Origin: a virus
IMG/VR virus record: IMGVR_UViG_3300010885_091047
Location: 1-27,163 of that record
Reading direction: 5' to 3' (one strand)
DNA length: 27,163 nt
Part shown: positions 10,738 to 23,319 of the stretch, piece after piece
How the letters are laid out: the number at the start of each line of letters is the position of its first letter
How positions within the stretch are numbered: position 1 is the stretch's first letter
The notes under the pieces: model-generated
What the model was told of the DNA's origin: nothing
Databases searched by the model: none
What the model saw: the letters and a program-made list of their open reading frames with translations, nothing else
Position numbers and translations under genes: made by a program

Positions 10738-13700
10738 ATGGCCACAAAAAATAATTCCCCTTATATTCCATCTTTTTTAAAGGCCTCGCTGTCTGACTCG
10801 AGACCACAACAATTAACTTTTCAAGACATAAATGGCAGCGATCCTACAAATTTATCCAGCACAGCTTCTTTCAAATATGAACCGATAGACTATCCATTAA
10901 AAAATACTCAACAATTAAATGTTGATTGGAAAAATTTTTCTAACCACACCTTTTTTTCCTCAGCTGAAGTAAAAACCAATGTGGCATTTGATCAGATTAT
11001 CAATGGATATCCTTTTGATGGCACAAAAAAAGAAATAGAAAAATTTTTTGATGGAATTAGCGGTTTTGAAAAATGGGTATTTGATAGATTTCCAATCTTT
11101 GGAGGACAATTACATTTTTCTGGAACTCAAGTAAATGAAGATCCACTCAATGGATATAACGAAAAATTGGGCACCTGGATAGAAGTTAAAGACAAAGCCG
11201 GTTGGTTATATCCAGATTTATCTAAAAACAAAAGTGGAAATTCTATTTTAAATCCACCTAAAAATAAGTCTTTTACGATAGAAGCACATGTATTTTTGCC
11301 CAATCAAATTAATGATAGACAAGTAATACTACAAAAAATGTCCCCTGATCTATTGCAAGGATTTACTTTGCATATCGAACCTTCTGTCACTGATTCTGTC
11401 ATTTGTACCTTTAGTTTTATCTCAGGCTCGGTTGCTAATTTTGTTAGTGCACCATTAAAAAAGGGTAATTTCAGCCATATTTGTGTGTCTTTGAGCAGGG
11501 AATTATCAGACAATTATTTATATTTTTTTGTTAATGAAAAATTAATATCACAAAGTAAAAAGACAAAAAATTTTGGAGAATTTACTGACAATTCTAGTCT
11601 AACGATAGGATCCGGATCTTCTTTTTATATCGATAATTTATTTGTTTTACCAACACAAACACTAAGTGGAACATTGGATGAATTTAGAATATTTCATTCA
11701 TTCAGGTCTACATTGCAACAACAAATATACGCATCGAAAGGCTTATATGCATCGCCGGATACCCTAAAATTATATTTTAGGTTCAATGAACCTCCTACAG
11801 CTTTGTCTTCTTCTCCGCTTGATCAAGTAAATTCCATAGTCTTGGACAGTTCTGGCAATTCGCTTCATTCCTTGATCTATAATTTTGATACTTCTTTAAG
11901 ACTTTCTTCTGAAAAAGATGCTTTAAATCCAATGATACATGAAAAGTCAGATTTTAAAAAAATACTTTTCCCATATAATCCTCAGGTCATTAGTCTCAAT
12001 GAAGAATTATTATCTTCAGCTAGCATCTATGATCAGAACAACCCCAATACCATTACCAAACTAATACCCAGACATTACTTTAGAGAAGGAGCACTAGAAG
12101 AAGGATTTTCTAATAACAAAATAGAAGGATCCATCGGAAATGCTTACGGAGGAACAGGAATTCCAGGACAGGGAGAATTAGGATCCACACAGGTAATGCT
12201 AACATTTCTCTATATTTGGGCCAAATTTTTTGATGAAATCAAAATGTTTGTCGATGCCTTTAAAAATCTTAAACATGTGGATTATTATAATAATGAAACT
12301 ATTCCTACTAATTTTTTATTTGATTTGATAAGAAGCTATGGCTTCTATCTGCCTCCATTTTTTAATAGTTCAAATGTCAAACAATATGTCGATGGAGAAG
12401 ATGTCAATGGCATTAGTATAGGCGATTATGCCTTGAAAGAAATTCAAGGACAGCTGTTGAGAAGAATTTTAATTAATATGCCTGATATCGTGATGTCAAA
12501 AGGCACACAGCATAGCATAAGATCATTTTTAAAATCTGCTGGCATAGATCCAGATAACAGCATGAGAATTAGAGAATTTGGAGGTCCTTCTGTTAGACAT
12601 CTTAATATAAATAGAGAAAGTAGAACAGAACCAATAGGTATCGTAAAATTCAATAATTTTTCTTTAGCTTCTACTCCATTTTTATCAGCCTCCAGAACAG
12701 AGCCTGGATATCCTTATCCTGCAGGAAATTTTATTTCTGGTATTTCTAACAATCCGAATGATGGATTGTTAACTTCAGGCTCCTGGACACTTGAAGGATC
12801 TTATCGATATATTCCATCCGTACAAGGAGAATCACATTCTTTGGCCAGATTAGAAGTAACTGGTTCGTCACCCACAGCTAACCCAGGTGTTATTTTAAAT
12901 TTATTCAACTCTGGTTCTTTATATGCTTATATAAGGCCTGGCATGGCTTCAAATTCACCAATTCTTAAATTAAATTTACCTAAGGCCAATATTTTGAATG
13001 GAGAAAGATGGAGTGTTTCTGTCGGTTGTTATAGAAATGACTCGATCAATAGTGAAATATCTTCCTCTTATTTTCTAAGAGCTGCAACTCATAATGCTGG
13101 TGAAATAAACAAAATTTACATGACGTCTTCTTATTTTAATGAAACACCATCTAGCGAAAAAAATGCTTTTAAAACCTTAGACTCTTTAAATAATGCTTCT
13201 GGTTCTAGATTGTCAATAGGAAATCTAGATATACCACAAGGAATATTTGGTTATTTGTATCTAAATGATTCTTTGGAGGTGGGAGATGAAGGTAGAACAA
13301 CTAAATTTAATGGAAGTGTAAACAACATTAGATTTTGGTCAAAAGGACTAACAGAAGATGAATGGAAAGAACATGTTAGAAATTATAAATCCTTTGGTGT
13401 AGAAGACCCATTGACAAATTACAATTATGTCACCAGCAAAGAAGGGTCTTTTGAAAGATTAAGACTCGATTCTTTTAAAACACAAAATCAAAAATTTGCT
13501 GATGAAAATGGAGATATATTATTTTTAGATTTTAGCGAAAATAATTTCCATTTAAATGGCCGCGGATTTAATGCTTCCAATAGAGTCATTGGAGGAGACT
13601 TGATAGATTATACTTATATTTCTCCGTATTTTGATGAGTATTCTTCAAGTGAAAAAATAAGAATTAGGAGCTTTCAAAATGAAGACTATATCAAAGATTC

Positions 13701-14184
13701 TCCATGGGCTTCATTAGCACCCGTTTATGAAATTCCGCCAACTGAAATACCACTAGATGATCCTCGATTATCCATCGAATTTTCTTTAATAGACTCTCTA
13801 AACAAAGACATTATTTGCATGTTTTCTAATTTGAACGCCATGTCAACAGCTATAGGCAACCCGGAACTTCTATATTCTTACGATTATCCGAATTTAGAAA
13901 AATTAAGGGAAGTCTATTTTAACAGAATAAAAGAAAAATTAAATTTTAGAGGATTTTTTGAATTTTATGAATGGTTCGATTTGTCCATCAGTACTTTTAT
14001 TGAACAGCTTGTGCCAAGAAAAACAAAATTCAAAGGCACTAATTTTATTATAGAATCACACATGCTGGAAAGGCACAAAATAGAATATCAATCCAGTGAA
14101 ATATATTTAGGAGATTCCAATAGAAGCAGAATAAGGGATGTGTTATTGGTTCAACAAGTTGTAGGAAGCATACACAAATTTTGA
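10738..14184 (+). CDS. Giant baseplate/tail protein with two LamG-like domains (gp7-like position)
   Basis: A 1148-residue structural protein. Residues about 172-350 form a concanavalin A/LamG-like beta-sandwich: KSFTIEAHVFLP, FTLHIEP, FSHICVSLSR, YLYFFVNEKLI, LSGTLDEFRIFHSFRS. A second copy spans about 675-885 (SGSWTLEGSYRYIP, GERWSVSVGCYR, GSVNNIRFWSKGLTEDEW). Between them, at about 500-620, lies LLRRILINMPDIVMSKGTQH, then IRSFLKSAGI and MRIREFGG. As I recall, this 'LL..lP.i...KGT..si...l..fGi....lrirEyGG' block recurs in large phage tail proteins. The size and position after gp6 recall T4 gp7 (1032 residues), but the LamG sandwiches suggest carbohydrate binding as well. The C-terminus (about 1030-1148) is helical and acidic/basic. 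The reading frame is intact throughout. Confidence 0.7.
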   Translation: MATKNNSPYIPSFLKASLSDSRPQQLTFQDINGSDPTNLSSTASFKYEPIDYPLKNTQQLNVDWKNFSNHTFFSSAEVKTNVAFDQIINGYPFDGTKKEIEKFFDGISGFEKWVFDRFPIFGGQLHFSGTQVNEDPLNGYNEKLGTWIEVKDKAGWLYPDLSKNKSGNSILNPPKNKSFTIEAHVFLPNQINDRQVILQKMSPDLLQGFTLHIEPSVTDSVICTFSFISGSVANFVSAPLKKGNFSHICVSLSRELSDNYLYFFVNEKLISQSKKTKNFGEFTDNSSLTIGSGSSFYIDNLFVLPTQTLSGTLDEFRIFHSFRSTLQQQIYASKGLYASPDTLKLYFRFNEPPTALSSSPLDQVNSIVLDSSGNSLHSLIYNFDTSLRLSSEKDALNPMIHEKSDFKKILFPYNPQVISLNEELLSSASIYDQNNPNTITKLIPRHYFREGALEEGFSNNKIEGSIGNAYGGTGIPGQGELGSTQVMLTFLYIWAKFFDEIKMFVDAFKNLKHVDYYNNETIPTNFLFDLIRSYGFYLPPFFNSSNVKQYVDGEDVNGISIGDYALKEIQGQLLRRILINMPDIVMSKGTQHSIRSFLKSAGIDPDNSMRIREFGGPSVRHLNINRESRTEPIGIVKFNNFSLASTPFLSASRTEPGYPYPAGNFISGISNNPNDGLLTSGSWTLEGSYRYIPSVQGESHSLARLEVTGSSPTANPGVILNLFNSGSLYAYIRPGMASNSPILKLNLPKANILNGERWSVSVGCYRNDSINSEISSSYFLRAATHNAGEINKIYMTSSYFNETPSSEKNAFKTLDSLNNASGSRLSIGNLDIPQGIFGYLYLNDSLEVGDEGRTTKFNGSVNNIRFWSKGLTEDEWKEHVRNYKSFGVEDPLTNYNYVTSKEGSFERLRLDSFKTQNQKFADENGDILFLDFSENNFHLNGRGFNASNRVIGGDLIDYTYISPYFDEYSSSEKIRIRSFQNEDYIKDSPWASLAPVYEIPPTEIPLDDPRLSIEFSLIDSLNKDIICMFSNLNAMSTAIGNPELLYSYDYPNLEKLREVYFNRIKEKLNFRGFFEFYEWFDLSISTFIEQLVPRKTKFKGTNFIIESHMLERHKIEYQSSEIYLGDSNRSRIRDVLLVQQVVGSIHKF

Positions 14185-20148: not shown

Positions 20149-20738
20149 CATATATCAAAAATTTAGGAGGACCACAGGGCAATCAAGGATCCGTGGGTAT
20201 TACTGGTCCACAAGGCAATCAAGGAATTGTTGGATTGCAAGGATACCAAGGATATCAAGGTTCCACAGGGCCATTGGGAGGACCACAAGGGTCAACGGGT
20301 CCGGTCGGTTCCATGGGGGCCCAAGGTCGCCAAGGAGTTGCAGGAATCCAAGGCCATCAAGGCTATCAAGGCTATCAAGGTCTCACAGGTCCACAAGGAT
20401 TAGGAACCTCTATATCTTCATACACGGTAAATATTTCCTCGTTTACATCAGATGGCATTAATCCTGCGACCCCAACGGCGACAGGAAATTATGTTTCTAT
20501 TGGAAATTATTATATTGTTAAAATAGAAATACAACTAGCAACTAACTTTGGTTCTAGGGGTCTGGCGACTGTGTCCTTGCCTGTTAGTCCAACACACGCA
20601 ATCACAGCGACAGTTCTCAATACAGGAACAGGTGCCATAACCAGCGCTACAGCTCCGGCAGGTGGACATGTATTGACATTGGCTGGAACAGCATATGATA
20701 GCAATAAAAAAATTGTCAATATTTCTTATTGGCACTGA
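20145..20738 (+). CDS. Collagen-like tail appendage protein
   Basis: A 197-residue protein with a short N-terminus (MTYIKNLG), a collagen-like Gly-X-Y region (residues 9-87) and a C-terminal beta-domain of about 110 residues (VKIEIQLATNFGSRGLATVS, then LTLAGTAYDSNKKIVNISYW). The collagen region has 26 triplets with one extra Gly breaking the register (GPL-G-GPQ). Gln dominates the Y position (GYQ, GNQ, GPQ, GHQ). Such proteins form trimeric stalks, and the C-terminal domain probably nucleates the trimer or binds the receptor. The start is ATG 20145, which overlaps the previous stop (ATGA) and has GGAG upstream; an in-frame GTG at 20133 is less likely. It closes the long late operon before the HAD gene. 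Confidence 0.85.
   Translation: MTYIKNLGGPQGNQGSVGITGPQGNQGIVGLQGYQGYQGSTGPLGGPQGSTGPVGSMGAQGRQGVAGIQGHQGYQGYQGLTGPQGLGTSISSYTVNISSFTSDGINPATPTATGNYVSIGNYYIVKIEIQLATNFGSRGLATVSLPVSPTHAITATVLNTGTGAITSATAPAGGHVLTLAGTAYDSNKKIVNISYWH
20169..20405 (+). repeat. Collagen-like Gly-X-Y coding repeat
   Basis: Seventy-nine codons encode 12 Gly-X-Y triplets, one extra Gly, then 14 more triplets. At DNA level near-identical blocks such as caaggatatcaagg and caaggctatcaaggctatc recur, making this tract prone to slippage and length change between phage strains. Confidence 0.9.
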
Positions 20739-20752
20739 GTTATAGTTATATC

Positions 20753-21313
20753 ATGTTTAATCTGTACCTCCTCAGAGAATACGTCCTGCAAGTCATCAAA
20801 GAGGAAAGGTTAAGTCGAGAACAAAAACTTAGAATCTTTGACTTCGACGATACTCTGGTCAAGACAGATTCCAAGATATATGTCAGTAATCCTTCAATAG
20901 GCCAGACAGCGACATTGACACCCGGCGAATTTGCTGTCTACGAGACTCAACCTGGAGACCAATTCGATTTCTCCGACTTCGAAAAACTCATTAATCCACG
21001 AATGATACCTTGGACCGGAAAAATACTTCGAAATCTCGCAGACAAAGGTAGCCAGGTCGTCATCTTGACGGCTCGCAGCGCTGAAGAACCAGTCAAACAA
21101 TTCTTGAGCGACGCCGGTTTACCGACTTACGAAGTAGTTGCCCTCGGCAACGCTGATCCACAAGCTAAAGCAAATTGGATATCTTCTAGGATACGATTGG
21201 ATAAAGTCAAACTAGTTGAATTTTTTGATGACAGTCCTAAAAATATAGCAGCCGTCAGACGTCTCAAAGATCTACATCCTGACGTCAAGATAACGGTAAG
21301 ACCTGTCGATTAA
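20753..21313 (+). CDS. HAD-superfamily phosphatase
   Basis: A 186-residue HAD hydrolase, expected to remove phosphate through an aspartyl-phosphate intermediate. Motif I is IFDFDDTLVKTD (nucleophile Asp30, acid/base Asp32). Motif II is VVILTARS (Thr106). Motif III is probably Lys138 in KANWI. Motif IV is VEFFDDSPKN (Asp159/Asp160). The small cap and the ILTAR...FFDD spacing resemble phage polynucleotide 3'-phosphatase-like and small-molecule HADs; the substrate cannot be told. The first 20 residues (LLREYVLQVIKEERL) form an amphipathic helix ahead of the catalytic domain. I start at ATG 20753 because the in-frame TTG at 20729 lies inside the collagen gene. The stop overlaps by three bases the stop of the convergent gene on the other strand. 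Confidence 0.85.
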   Translation: MFNLYLLREYVLQVIKEERLSREQKLRIFDFDDTLVKTDSKIYVSNPSIGQTATLTPGEFAVYETQPGDQFDFSDFEKLINPRMIPWTGKILRNLADKGSQVVILTARSAEEPVKQFLSDAGLPTYEVVALGNADPQAKANWISSRIRLDKVKLVEFFDDSPKNIAAVRRLKDLHPDVKITVRPVD

Positions 21314-21786
21314 TTTAAAGTCCTTGGTTTTTTCTCTCGAAAAGATTGTATTTCTTCTTCTTCATCCATCGCCGCAAACAATACGTCTAAATCAAATTTA
21401 TGTTTGGACCTCTTTGTCAGCATTGTGGTCTTTGTGTCTTCGTCAGCCCCCGATTTAAAAGTCATTATGTCTTCGACAATCCACCCTTCTTGTATGCCCA
21501 CCAAGTCCTTCTTTAGATAAGGAGTGACCTTCACAACCTTACCCAGTCTGATGTAGTCTATCCTGGCCTCAAAAGAATCTTCATAGATAAATTCACAGCC
21601 TCTCCACTCCACTTCCATCGTCTCACCTTTCTTCAGGTACACTTCGGTTCCCAACGAAGGATCCATCTTTTTTTCGGCCTGCAGGTCCGGGTCGTTTAAC
21701 CAGACGTAGAGGGATTCCGGGCTATTGAATATCTTGAATTTCTTCCCAGAAGAGCCCTTGTTGACTGTTATCCTCATCTTCTTCAT
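21310..21786 (-). CDS. Protein of unknown function, last gene of the minus-strand block
   Basis: A 158-residue protein without a recognised family. The sequence is a mix of beta-strands and charged helices: KMRITVNKGSSGKKFKIF, then SPESLYVWLNDPD, a strand-rich middle (EVYLKKGETMEVEWRGCEFI, DYIRLGKVVKVTPYL), and an acidic/basic C-terminal tail (LFAAMDEEEEIQSFREKKPR) that is probably disordered. I start at ATG 21786; a TTG at 21801 and an ATG at 21777 are alternatives, and no ribosome binding site distinguishes them. It follows the PTH2 gene by 41 bases, so it is probably co-transcribed with it. Its stop overlaps that of the HAD gene, giving a tail-to-tail junction with no visible terminator. 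Confidence 0.7.
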   Translation of the reverse strand: MKKMRITVNKGSSGKKFKIFNSPESLYVWLNDPDLQAEKKMDPSLGTEVYLKKGETMEVEWRGCEFIYEDSFEARIDYIRLGKVVKVTPYLKKDLVGIQEGWIVEDIMTFKSGADEDTKTTMLTKRSKHKFDLDVLFAAMDEEEEIQSFREKKPRTLN

Positions 21787-21827
21787 GTCTATAATCGCCA
21801 ATCTACATCAACAAAAAAAATGATAAA

Positions 21828-22223
21828 CTACAACAACTTAAGGTGACCTGTTATCTGGTCGACTTCCTCCACGACGTCGGGACCAAAAGCCGCACAGACT
21901 ACGGTCTCTGTTGTTTCCCCATTTTCATCTGGAGCACCCTTGTCGATGATTGGATAAACCTCGACGCTGGATAATCTGGCTTTAAATATAAGATCGTTTA
22001 AAGCGTCTTCAGAGTCAATTCCGACCATAATGGTTCGAAATCCACTATTGATCCATTTGGCTTCTTCACCAGACAGCTTGACGGATATCTCATCCCCGCG
22101 TTCAGAATCGTTGTTGTCCACAATAAACTTCATAGAAGCATGAGCGGCATGCGAAAACATCTCACTCTTCCGCATGTTAAGGTCTCGTCGGACGACTATT
22201 ACCTGTTTGATATCATTGGACAT
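21828..22223 (-). CDS. Peptidyl-tRNA hydrolase, PTH2 family
   Basis: A 131-residue PTH2-type peptidyl-tRNA hydrolase, an enzyme that frees tRNA from peptides left by aborted translation. The full family layout is visible: KQVIVVRRDLNMRKSEMF then AAHAS (N-terminal strand and first helix), the W...GFRTIMVGIDSEDAL block, the Asp94 loop (YPIIDKG), the strand ETVVCAAFGP, and the terminal VDQITGHLKLL. The length matches the family (about 115-135 residues). Two key positions are unusual: in the usual 'M.kGK.aAQ.aHA' helix the catalytic Lys aligns with Glu21, and the Gln with His25. Thr105 and Asp94 are kept. It lies 12 bases after the NADAR gene with a short AT-rich inverted repeat before its ATG, so the two look like an operon. 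Activity is uncertain because of Glu21. Confidence 0.85.
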   Translation of the reverse strand: MSNDIKQVIVVRRDLNMRKSEMFSHAAHASMKFIVDNNDSERGDEISVKLSGEEAKWINSGFRTIMVGIDSEDALNDLIFKARLSSVEVYPIIDKGAPDENGETTETVVCAAFGPDVVEEVDQITGHLKLL

Positions 22224-22235
22224 GATATAGAAAAT

Positions 22236-22745
22236 CTATACAACACTACTATTGTGTATATCTTCTTTACGAATTCTGTCTCTCTCCTCGACTAATATCC
22301 TACCCAACCAGTTCTCACCAATGCCTCGACAAACTCCCCAGAAAGTGTCATTCCACTTGTTGTTAAGTACCAGTTCGGCTTCTCCCGTGCCCAACAACAA
22401 CGGTCTAAGAAAAGGATTTTCGAACTTTTCTCTTACTAGAGCTCTCATTATTTCCAACCTAACTTCTAGCCAATCTTCTCTAACAGGAATAGCTTGACCC
22501 AGCTTTTTGGCCTCGAACGGGCTCTTGGCTTTTCTTATCGTCTCTCGTATATTAATGTCGATGGTCTTGGCCGCCTGATAGGCGTGTTCGAGAGTCGGAT
22601 ATAGAGCACCTTCGAATCTAACGGTAGACGGGTGGAAGTTAGACAAAAATTCGTGTCCATTTTCTTTAGTGAACCTGTCTATCAAAGGTTTCTTGTCTTC
22701 CATCTTTCTACCGTAAAATGAATTATGGCGGCTCATGGCCGCCAT
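22236..22745 (-). CDS. NADAR-family (YbiA-like) N-glycosidase
   Basis: A NADAR-domain protein. The family hydrolyses N-glycosidic bonds: YbiA acts on riboflavin-pathway intermediates, and other members remove ADP-ribose from guanine bases modified by DarT-type toxins. All family blocks are present: GHEFLSNFHPSTVRFEG, LYPTLEHAYQAAK, EDWLEVRLEIMRALVREKF, LLLGTGEAELVLNNKW, and NDTFWGVCRGIGENWLGRIL. The domain alone is about 150 residues, so the protein is complete. The start is unsure. ATG 22745 (given, 169 codons) and ATG 22736 both lie inside a perfect hairpin. ATG 22703 (155 codons) lies just beyond it and would begin MEDKKPLIDRF, close to a typical NADAR N-terminus. An open extension upstream to 23003 is a shadow of the lipoprotein gene. 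In a phage, repair of damaged or ADP-ribosylated nucleotides is a plausible but unproven role. Confidence 0.88.
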   Translation of the reverse strand: MAAMSRHNSFYGRKMEDKKPLIDRFTKENGHEFLSNFHPSTVRFEGALYPTLEHAYQAAKTIDINIRETIRKAKSPFEAKKLGQAIPVREDWLEVRLEIMRALVREKFENPFLRPLLLGTGEAELVLNNKWNDTFWGVCRGIGENWLGRILVEERDRIRKEDIHNSSVV

Positions 22746-22749
22746 AATT
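22721..22749 (-). promoter_or_regulatory. Perfect 12-bp inverted repeat with 5-base loop over the NADAR start region
   Basis: The arms aattatggcggc and gccgccataatt are exact reverse complements around the loop tcatg. On the minus strand the RNA would hold one AUG in the 5' arm (22745) and one in the loop (22736). It lies 21 bases past the lipoprotein stop. It could be a terminator without a real U-tract, or a fold that hides the NADAR start codon. Confidence 0.6.
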
Positions 22750-22770
22750 TCTTTCTTTATGTATTTTATA

Positions 22771-23046
22771 TCACTTCTTGTCGGTCGACTTCGAAGTAAC
22801 AGTCGTGGTGGTGGTCGTCGCCTTCTCGGTGACAGCAGCGCCATTGGCCGCTGGAACGACCGTTGCGCTCGTGACGACTGGAACAACAGCGGCCACTGTG
22901 GAAGCTGCAGAAGCACTGGCAACAGCTGGAGCAACCGACGCGCTAGCAGAAGCCGAAGGCGCCGCCGCATCAGCGTCGACCGCAGGAGCACTAGAACCAA
23001 CACAACCAGCCAACATAGCTACGCAACAAAAAATTACACTCTTCAT
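22771..23046 (-). CDS. Ala/Ser/Val/Thr-rich lipoprotein
   Basis: A 91-residue secreted lipoprotein. Residues 1-14 form a short signal peptide (KSVIFCCVAM) ending in the lipobox LAGC, so Cys15 should be lipidated and the mature protein anchored to a membrane. The mature part is low-complexity: Ala/Ser/Pro/Val-rich (APSASASASVAPAVASASAA), then a Thr-rich stretch and a basic tail (SKSTDKK). The start at ATG 23046 is chosen over ATG 23061 because GGAG lies 9 bases upstream and the lipobox spacing fits. Phage lipoproteins commonly act in lysis (outer-membrane spanin) or superinfection exclusion. This one lacks the Pro-rich Rz1 signature and no Rz partner is nearby, so neither role can be assigned. 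It is the most GC-rich gene here. A 159-codon plus-strand ORF covering it is its mirror. Confidence 0.7.
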   Translation of the reverse strand: MKSVIFCCVAMLAGCVGSSAPAVDADAAAPSASASASVAPAVASASAASTVAAVVPVVTSATVVPAANGAAVTEKATTTTTTVTSKSTDKK

Positions 23047-23055
23047 TTTGAATTT

Positions 23056-23059
23056 CTCC
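23056..23059 (-). promoter_or_regulatory. Ribosome binding site GGAG for the lipoprotein gene
   Basis: On the minus strand GGAG is followed by nine bases and ATG 23046. This favours the shorter start, which also gives the better signal peptide. Confidence 0.5.
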
Positions 23060-23067
23060 ATTTTTAT

Positions 23068-23085
23068 GCCTGAACCAAAGCAGGC
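23068..23085 (-). repeat. Short inverted repeat upstream of the lipoprotein gene
   Basis: The 5-bp arms gcctg and caggc enclose an 8-base spacer, just upstream of the lipoprotein start and past the end of the possible small gene. It is too short and lacks a T-tract, so calling it a terminator or operator would be speculative. Confidence 0.3.
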
Positions 23086-23115
23086 GGTCCTAATTATATG
23101 CCACAGATGCCCACA

Positions 23116-23319
23116 TTACAAATTTATTTTATCTCTTGTGTTTAGGCCCTTTGGTAACCTGAGATTTGGATTCTTGGGATCTCGCCTATCCCCAAATTCA
23201 TTATCATTCTTATTTTTTGTTGTAGAATCTATAACGGTCTCGACGGGCCAACCATAGACCATTTCCTTTATCAAACAGCGAATAGCAATTTTAAGGGCAC
23301 AAAGCTCTAGATTTTTCAT
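23116..23319 (-). CDS. Possible small protein at the head of the minus-strand block
   Basis: A 67-codon reading frame that fills the space between the lipoprotein gene and the divergent fibre gene, on the strand expected for this block. The translation begins KNLELCALKIAIRCLIKEMV, an amphipathic helix. It ends in a charged, Asn/Pro-rich and probably unstructured tail (KNKNDNEFGDRRDPKNPNLR). No ribosome binding site precedes ATG 23319 and no family is recognised. The balanced composition and its place in the operon support it; the small size and missing ribosome binding site argue against. No gene on either strand overlaps it apart from shadow frames. Confidence 0.4.
   Translation of the reverse strand: MKNLELCALKIAIRCLIKEMVYGWPVETVIDSTTKNKNDNEFGDRRDPKNPNLRLPKGLNTRDKINL

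Follow-up and report, generated by a model that had tools for sequence, protein, structure and literature searches.

A conserved NADAR–PTH2 cassette of large uncultured phages with loss of catalytic residues in a tRNA-free subclade

The window analysed here is the entire IMG/VR virus record IMGVR_UViG_3300010885_091047 (27,163 bases), and it carries within its tail region an island (21310-23319) in which all genes are on the minus strand, between plus-strand tail and fibre genes. The core of this island is formed by three genes, for a NADAR protein, a PTH2-fold protein and a third protein of 158 amino acids (aa); the trio makes up an operon-like cassette that is conserved in a single clade of large, uncultured tailed phages. 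In the tRNA-free subclade of the window, alignments and structure models indicate that both enzyme-like proteins no longer have their full set of catalytic residues, although strong purifying selection still acts on both. In relatives that bear tRNA arrays, the same tail-side position carries an island of RNA-repair and ribosome-rescue genes together with the array.

A conserved cassette at one genomic position

The NADAR gene (22236-22703, minus strand; 155 aa; PF08719, E 5e-24) is followed after 12 nt by the PTH2 gene (21828-22223, minus; 131 aa; PF01981, E 2.8e-21) and after a further 41 nt by the third gene (21310-21786, minus), for which we use an MKK start, an alternative TTG start being possible at 21801. 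The open reading frame (ORF) of the NADAR gene stays open further upstream, and its homologues begin at MEDKK. The gene calls and Pfam matches bear out the layout given in a preliminary description of this DNA, which had reported opposite-strand accessory genes, PTH2 and NADAR among them, inside the tail-gene region.

Gene order in relatives, all of which are uncultured contigs, was read by hidden Markov model scans of loci from viral contigs; 22 loci with the third gene and 74 with PTH2 were found, some of them sharing a contig. The synteny counts leave out L042 and L104, which belong to other phages, and also L057, truncated at its contig end. Every clade locus in which NADAR was found (32 of 32) has it upstream of PTH2 and in the same orientation, and the third gene lies downstream of PTH2, again on the same strand, in 30 of 30. 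Because order and strand are fixed wherever the genes co-occur, the core arrangement is more than a chance one, and this strict synteny within the clade is the opposite of the scattered genes that would have spoken against the preliminary interpretation. The cassette occupies a single genomic position beside baseplate and fibre genes. A baseplate-region protein of 1148 aa (10738-14184, plus) served as clade marker; all cassette-bearing contigs that were tested, except the short contig L037, encode a homologue of 48-68% identity, eight comparison contigs give at most a short, weak match, and INPHARED gives none. Since the cassette-bearing contigs share this marker and INPHARED does not hold it, we assign them to one clade of uncultured large phages, the contigs of which reach 369 kb. 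No isolate relative was found by a DNA-level search of phage records or by an INPHARED search with the third protein and the marker.

The family of the third protein is apparently found only in this phage clade, as judged from sequence searches, and no homologue was detected in INPHARED or in the genome_contigs scan. AlphaFold gives it a confident, beta-rich model (pLDDT 90), for which Foldseek found no structural match at E <= 0.001 in the PDB or BFVD; the best VIA-align Z was 4.6, which leaves a known fold possible.

Several genes accompany the core in individual relatives. Between PTH2 and the third gene, locus L005 carries an MT-A70 methyltransferase gene (L005:7420-8004; PF05063, E 5e-29), and L013 has a closely similar protein in the same place (L013:5411-6004); a sigma-70 family factor (PF04542, PF04539) is encoded near the cassette at L005:1365-2156. 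Nine loci of the array or intermediate type encode, upstream of NADAR, a conserved, secreted-looking protein of ~200 aa with no Pfam match (e.g. L033:573-1226), and a similar-looking gene stands directly upstream of NADAR at L003:5427-6014. Moreover, the jumbo phages XacN1 (AP018399, 171204-174458) and RAS14 (OP752703, 158406-160380) each have a NADAR and a PTH2 gene near their head genes, in the same orientation and separated by ~1-2.5 kb; hence the NADAR-PTH2 association recurs outside the clade. In the literature searched we found no described PTH2-NADAR cassette and no inactive phage NADAR.

Compact loci and tRNA arrays

The locus exists in two states. In compact loci (the window, L003-L008, L011-L021, L030, L062, L064 and L068-L074) the three genes stand side by side or almost so, and 0-1 tRNA is found in the vicinity; in array loci (L009, L024, L032-L034, L037-L041, L043, L044, L048, L049, L054 and L100) the same gene order is spread over several kb with ~8-30 tRNAs interleaved; L026, with four tRNAs, is intermediate. 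Across whole contigs, four array contigs hold 48-58 tRNAs each, and five compact contigs of 187-278 kb hold none (G001, of 200 kb, G017 and G019), one (G018) or 14 (G020). Array loci also carry conserved plus-strand genes for a PF09414 RNA ligase, a T4 Rnl1-type ligase, an RF-1-domain protein, DUF4326, YAcAr SLOG and HNH proteins, a gene content which places the cassette in an RNA-repair and ribosome-rescue locus and which lends support to the earlier suggestion of a tie to tRNA biology and repair. The window has neither a tRNA gene nor a PF09414 match, both of which are found in the array relatives. A genome search with PF09511 gave no matches even where the family is present, and its result was discarded. 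As the tree is unrooted, either an array may have collapsed into the compact state or a compact locus may have grown into the arrays.

RNA repair and ribosome rescue have been described as a theme of jumbo phages (PMC7824862, PMC9503650). The array relatives resemble such loci in combining tRNAs, RNA ligases, an RF-1-domain protein, PTH2, NADAR, DUF4326 and SLOG, whereas the branch of the window retains NADAR, PTH2, the third gene and a HAD gene only, with no tRNAs and with degraded catalytic sites. This HAD phosphatase (20729-21313, plus; phrog_415, E 3e-12), which is similar to polynucleotide kinase-phosphatases, converges on the third gene with an overlap of 4 nt, and the convergent arrangement is seen in the window and in many array loci, a 48-54% homologue being present beside the third gene in L009, L024, L027, L039, L041, L043 and L049. 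One could suppose that the compact cassette remains from a tRNA and RNA-repair island that has since been lost, and that it is kept for a structural or virion role, for example as packaged proteins. It does sit at the locus of the arrays and adjoins tail genes, and packaging of NADARs in the virions of myoviruses has been suggested (PMC9503650). However, the cassette is transcribed opposite to the tail genes, and the array relatives keep its order and, for the most part, the catalytic residues. This argues for a role inside the cell and makes a virion function improbable.

Catalytic residues of NADAR and PTH2

The window NADAR is a clear member of its family (85.7 bits against 35.1 for PF08719; 79.6 against 73.7 for TIGR02464). 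In the Phytophthora nicotianae NADAR the catalytic residues are E43, K50 and E125, and replacing the equivalent of E125 abolishes activity (Schuller et al. 2023; PMC11543638). When aligned with 8bau, YbiA and 14 control phage NADARs, the window protein keeps the first two as E39 and K46, which are retained throughout the clade NADARs, and also all three ADP-ribose contacts (W89, D130 and W133 in P. nicotianae numbering), but it has Leu (L113; codon 22365-22367, minus) in place of the catalytic Glu. This Glu is present in 27 of 27 sequences from 13 array loci and the 14 controls and in none of the ten of the window subclade, which carry L or M at the acid position with N, D or G adjacent; it is the sole column of at least 90% conservation that these ten have lost. 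The NADAR of L026 shows Gln and then Glu at this site, and its locus has an intact PTH2. The idea that such a change is normal for phage NADARs was rejected for close relatives, as 14 of 14 controls keep Glu. Thus the window protein is like the NADAR/YbiA proteins (PF08719, TIGR02464; DarT1-linked antitoxins, T4 gp30.3 and bacterial YbiA) in sequence family, in its ADP-ribose pocket residues and in E39 and K46, and unlike them in its third catalytic residue, which is Glu in YbiA, Asp in the DarT1 type and His in gp30.3. No DarT toxin gene stands beside it: its downstream neighbour has the PTH2 fold, and upstream lie a lipoprotein gene and a 67-aa ORF, both lacking a significant Pfam match. PADLOC returned a weak PDC-M42C match for NADAR alone.

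The PTH2 fold is kept in the window protein, as its model (pLDDT 93; Foldseek TM 0.85 to 1xty) and its PF01981 score (76 bits, cut-off 23) indicate, but it falls below the NCBIfam equivalog cut-offs, with 64 and 67.6 bits (TIGR00283, 82 bits; NF003314, 126 bits), and the array homologue in L009 passes TIGR00283 with 95.3 bits. We take K18, D86, T90 and T98 to be the active-site residues of Pth2, with the roles attributed to Fromant et al. 2005; positions were assigned by alignment to solved archaeal Pth2s, and invariance was counted among phage sequences. Relative to SsPth2 the window protein has E21 for K18, P98 for T90 and V109 for T98, and it keeps D86 as D94. The quartet is intact in 20 of 20 sequences from other phages, in 15 of 19 tRNA-bearing clade loci and in none of 17 tRNA-free clade loci (Fisher p 7e-7 for intactness versus tRNAs, which is not a test of independent events). 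The four tRNA-bearing loci with a degraded PTH2 are L016 and L017, with a single tRNA each, and the arrays L044 and L049. Moreover, the DxGxTEFxG loop is no longer conserved as a motif in the window subclade, and compact PTH2s vary at the lost positions (T90 being replaced by K, P, N, S, E or D) with no new motif in common. A general decay of any PTH2 that lies far from tRNAs was considered and rejected, as all 13 such PTH2s of other phages are intact. Hence the window protein agrees with Pth2 peptidyl-tRNA hydrolases of the archaeal and eukaryotic type (PF01981) in fold and overall sequence, and most array relatives keep the quartet, whereas the window lacks the equivalents of K18, T90 and T98 and the DxGxTEF loop. 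Pth2 has been noted in jumbo phages as a ribosome-rescue factor (PMC7824862). Because other phages and archaea have the catalytic residues, their loss is most simply a derived state.

Selection and possible function of the module

The core genes are not decaying, since pairwise ratios of nonsynonymous to synonymous substitution rates (dN/dS) among compact loci lie for the most part at about 0.03-0.13 in each of the three; a single higher value, 0.56, belongs to two almost identical sequences whose dS is 0.012. Persistence in a fixed order and under constraint, in proteins that are without the residues which define their chemistry, is most simply accounted for by a function that needs no catalysis. 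We therefore lean, short of even confidence, towards a repurposed pseudoenzyme module in which non-catalytic NADAR and PTH2 proteins act as binders with the third protein as their partner. NADAR would bind, sequester or read an ADP-ribose-type ligand, either a free signal or ADP-ribosylated nucleic acid, PTH2 would bind either a tRNA end or partner proteins, and the module may protect phage translation or blunt a defence based on NAD/ADP-ribose or on tRNA. The kept pocket together with the lost acid suggests that NADAR could serve as a sponge for an ADP-ribose signal. A precedent is RyDEP, a phage protein family in which enzymes stand beside sponge members directed against ADP-ribose signals (PMC13232231); it illustrates how a phage protein can bind a ligand while others of its family are enzymes, although RyDEP is unrelated and binding by the window NADAR is only putative. 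A narrower proposal, which we hold to be possible though doubtful, is a counter-defence complex that derives from a tRNA-array repair island and joins two retired RNA-repair enzymes to a third protein specific to the clade; in it, a NADAR without its catalytic acid would sequester or read ADP-ribose-type ligands, and a PTH2 without its active-site loop would bind tRNA ends or partners.

The main rival is that both proteins are still enzymes with changed chemistry or substrates, so that the substituted residues act on another tRNA adduct or ADP-ribose derivative. The strong purifying selection and the retention of E39, K46 and the pocket residues would fit this, as would the Glu displaced by one position in NADARs of the second compact subclade and the variation of the acid residue between known NADAR subfamilies (PMC11543638). 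On the other hand, compact PTH2s disagree with one another at the lost positions, and window-subclade NADARs have L or M in place of the acid, with N, D or G beside it; we regard changed chemistry as rather unlikely.

Several points weigh against the pseudoenzyme module. The NADAR of the second compact subclade shows Asn, with a Glu displaced by one position (LINENRWND), so that this protein may be active. With degraded PTH2s in the arrays of L044 and L049, the link between lost tRNAs and lost catalysis is not strict, and it may rest on one or two events, independent losses of the array not being established (approximately unbiased test, p 0.36). The catalytic roles of the PTH2 residues are drawn from earlier literature and from invariance here, and the ligand, complex and benefit of the module are putative. 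Nevertheless, if the module is what we propose, phage repair enzymes were converted, in fixed gene order, to non-catalytic binders in array-free lineages. Matched pairs of active-looking and disarmed homologues at one locus make a non-catalytic role of phage NADAR and PTH2 directly testable, and the strict synteny connects phage NADAR with the repair of tRNA and RNA.

Lipoprotein and neighbouring genes

Upstream of NADAR lies a gene for an Ala/Ser-rich lipoprotein of 96 aa with a lipobox (22771-23061, minus), and a 14-bp hairpin that is terminator-like on the plus strand (22720-22750; z -5.3) stands between them. In eight loci of the window subclade a small Ala/Ser-rich lipoprotein is encoded upstream of NADAR at a distance of 83-870 nt; two loci from the other compact subclade have one ~4.7 kb upstream, and none was found in array loci. 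Because the hairpin separates the gene from NADAR and the distance varies among relatives, the lipoprotein is a companion and not a core member. This bears on the earlier proposal of host takeover or counter-defence by active tRNA salvage, N-glycosidase repair and an envelope lipoprotein. The gene identities and the RNA-repair context in relatives favour it, as does the removal of guanosine-ADP-ribose from RNA by T4 phage and bacterial NADARs (PMC11833690); but with key catalytic residues lost from both proteins in the window phage and the lipoprotein loosely placed, we think it quite improbable. Of the preliminary description, the island and its link to tRNA biology and repair stand, and host takeover or counter-defence is a candidate role; catalysis in the window phage is unlikely, and the lipoprotein is not a tight member of the unit.

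A sigma-70-like promoter match (TTGTAA-17-TATAAT; 23093-23121, minus), which is a consensus match only, lies upstream of the lipoprotein gene, and T4-type late promoters (TATAAATA) were rejected because their occurrence was not above chance. The 67-aa ORF (23116-23319, minus) is probably real, with a 41% homologue in L026. Elsewhere in the window, 2096-2854 gives a weak match to a late sigma factor family, and a glycosyltransferase gene lies near the window start (620-1798; PF00534, PF13692; borderline GT4-conflict match).

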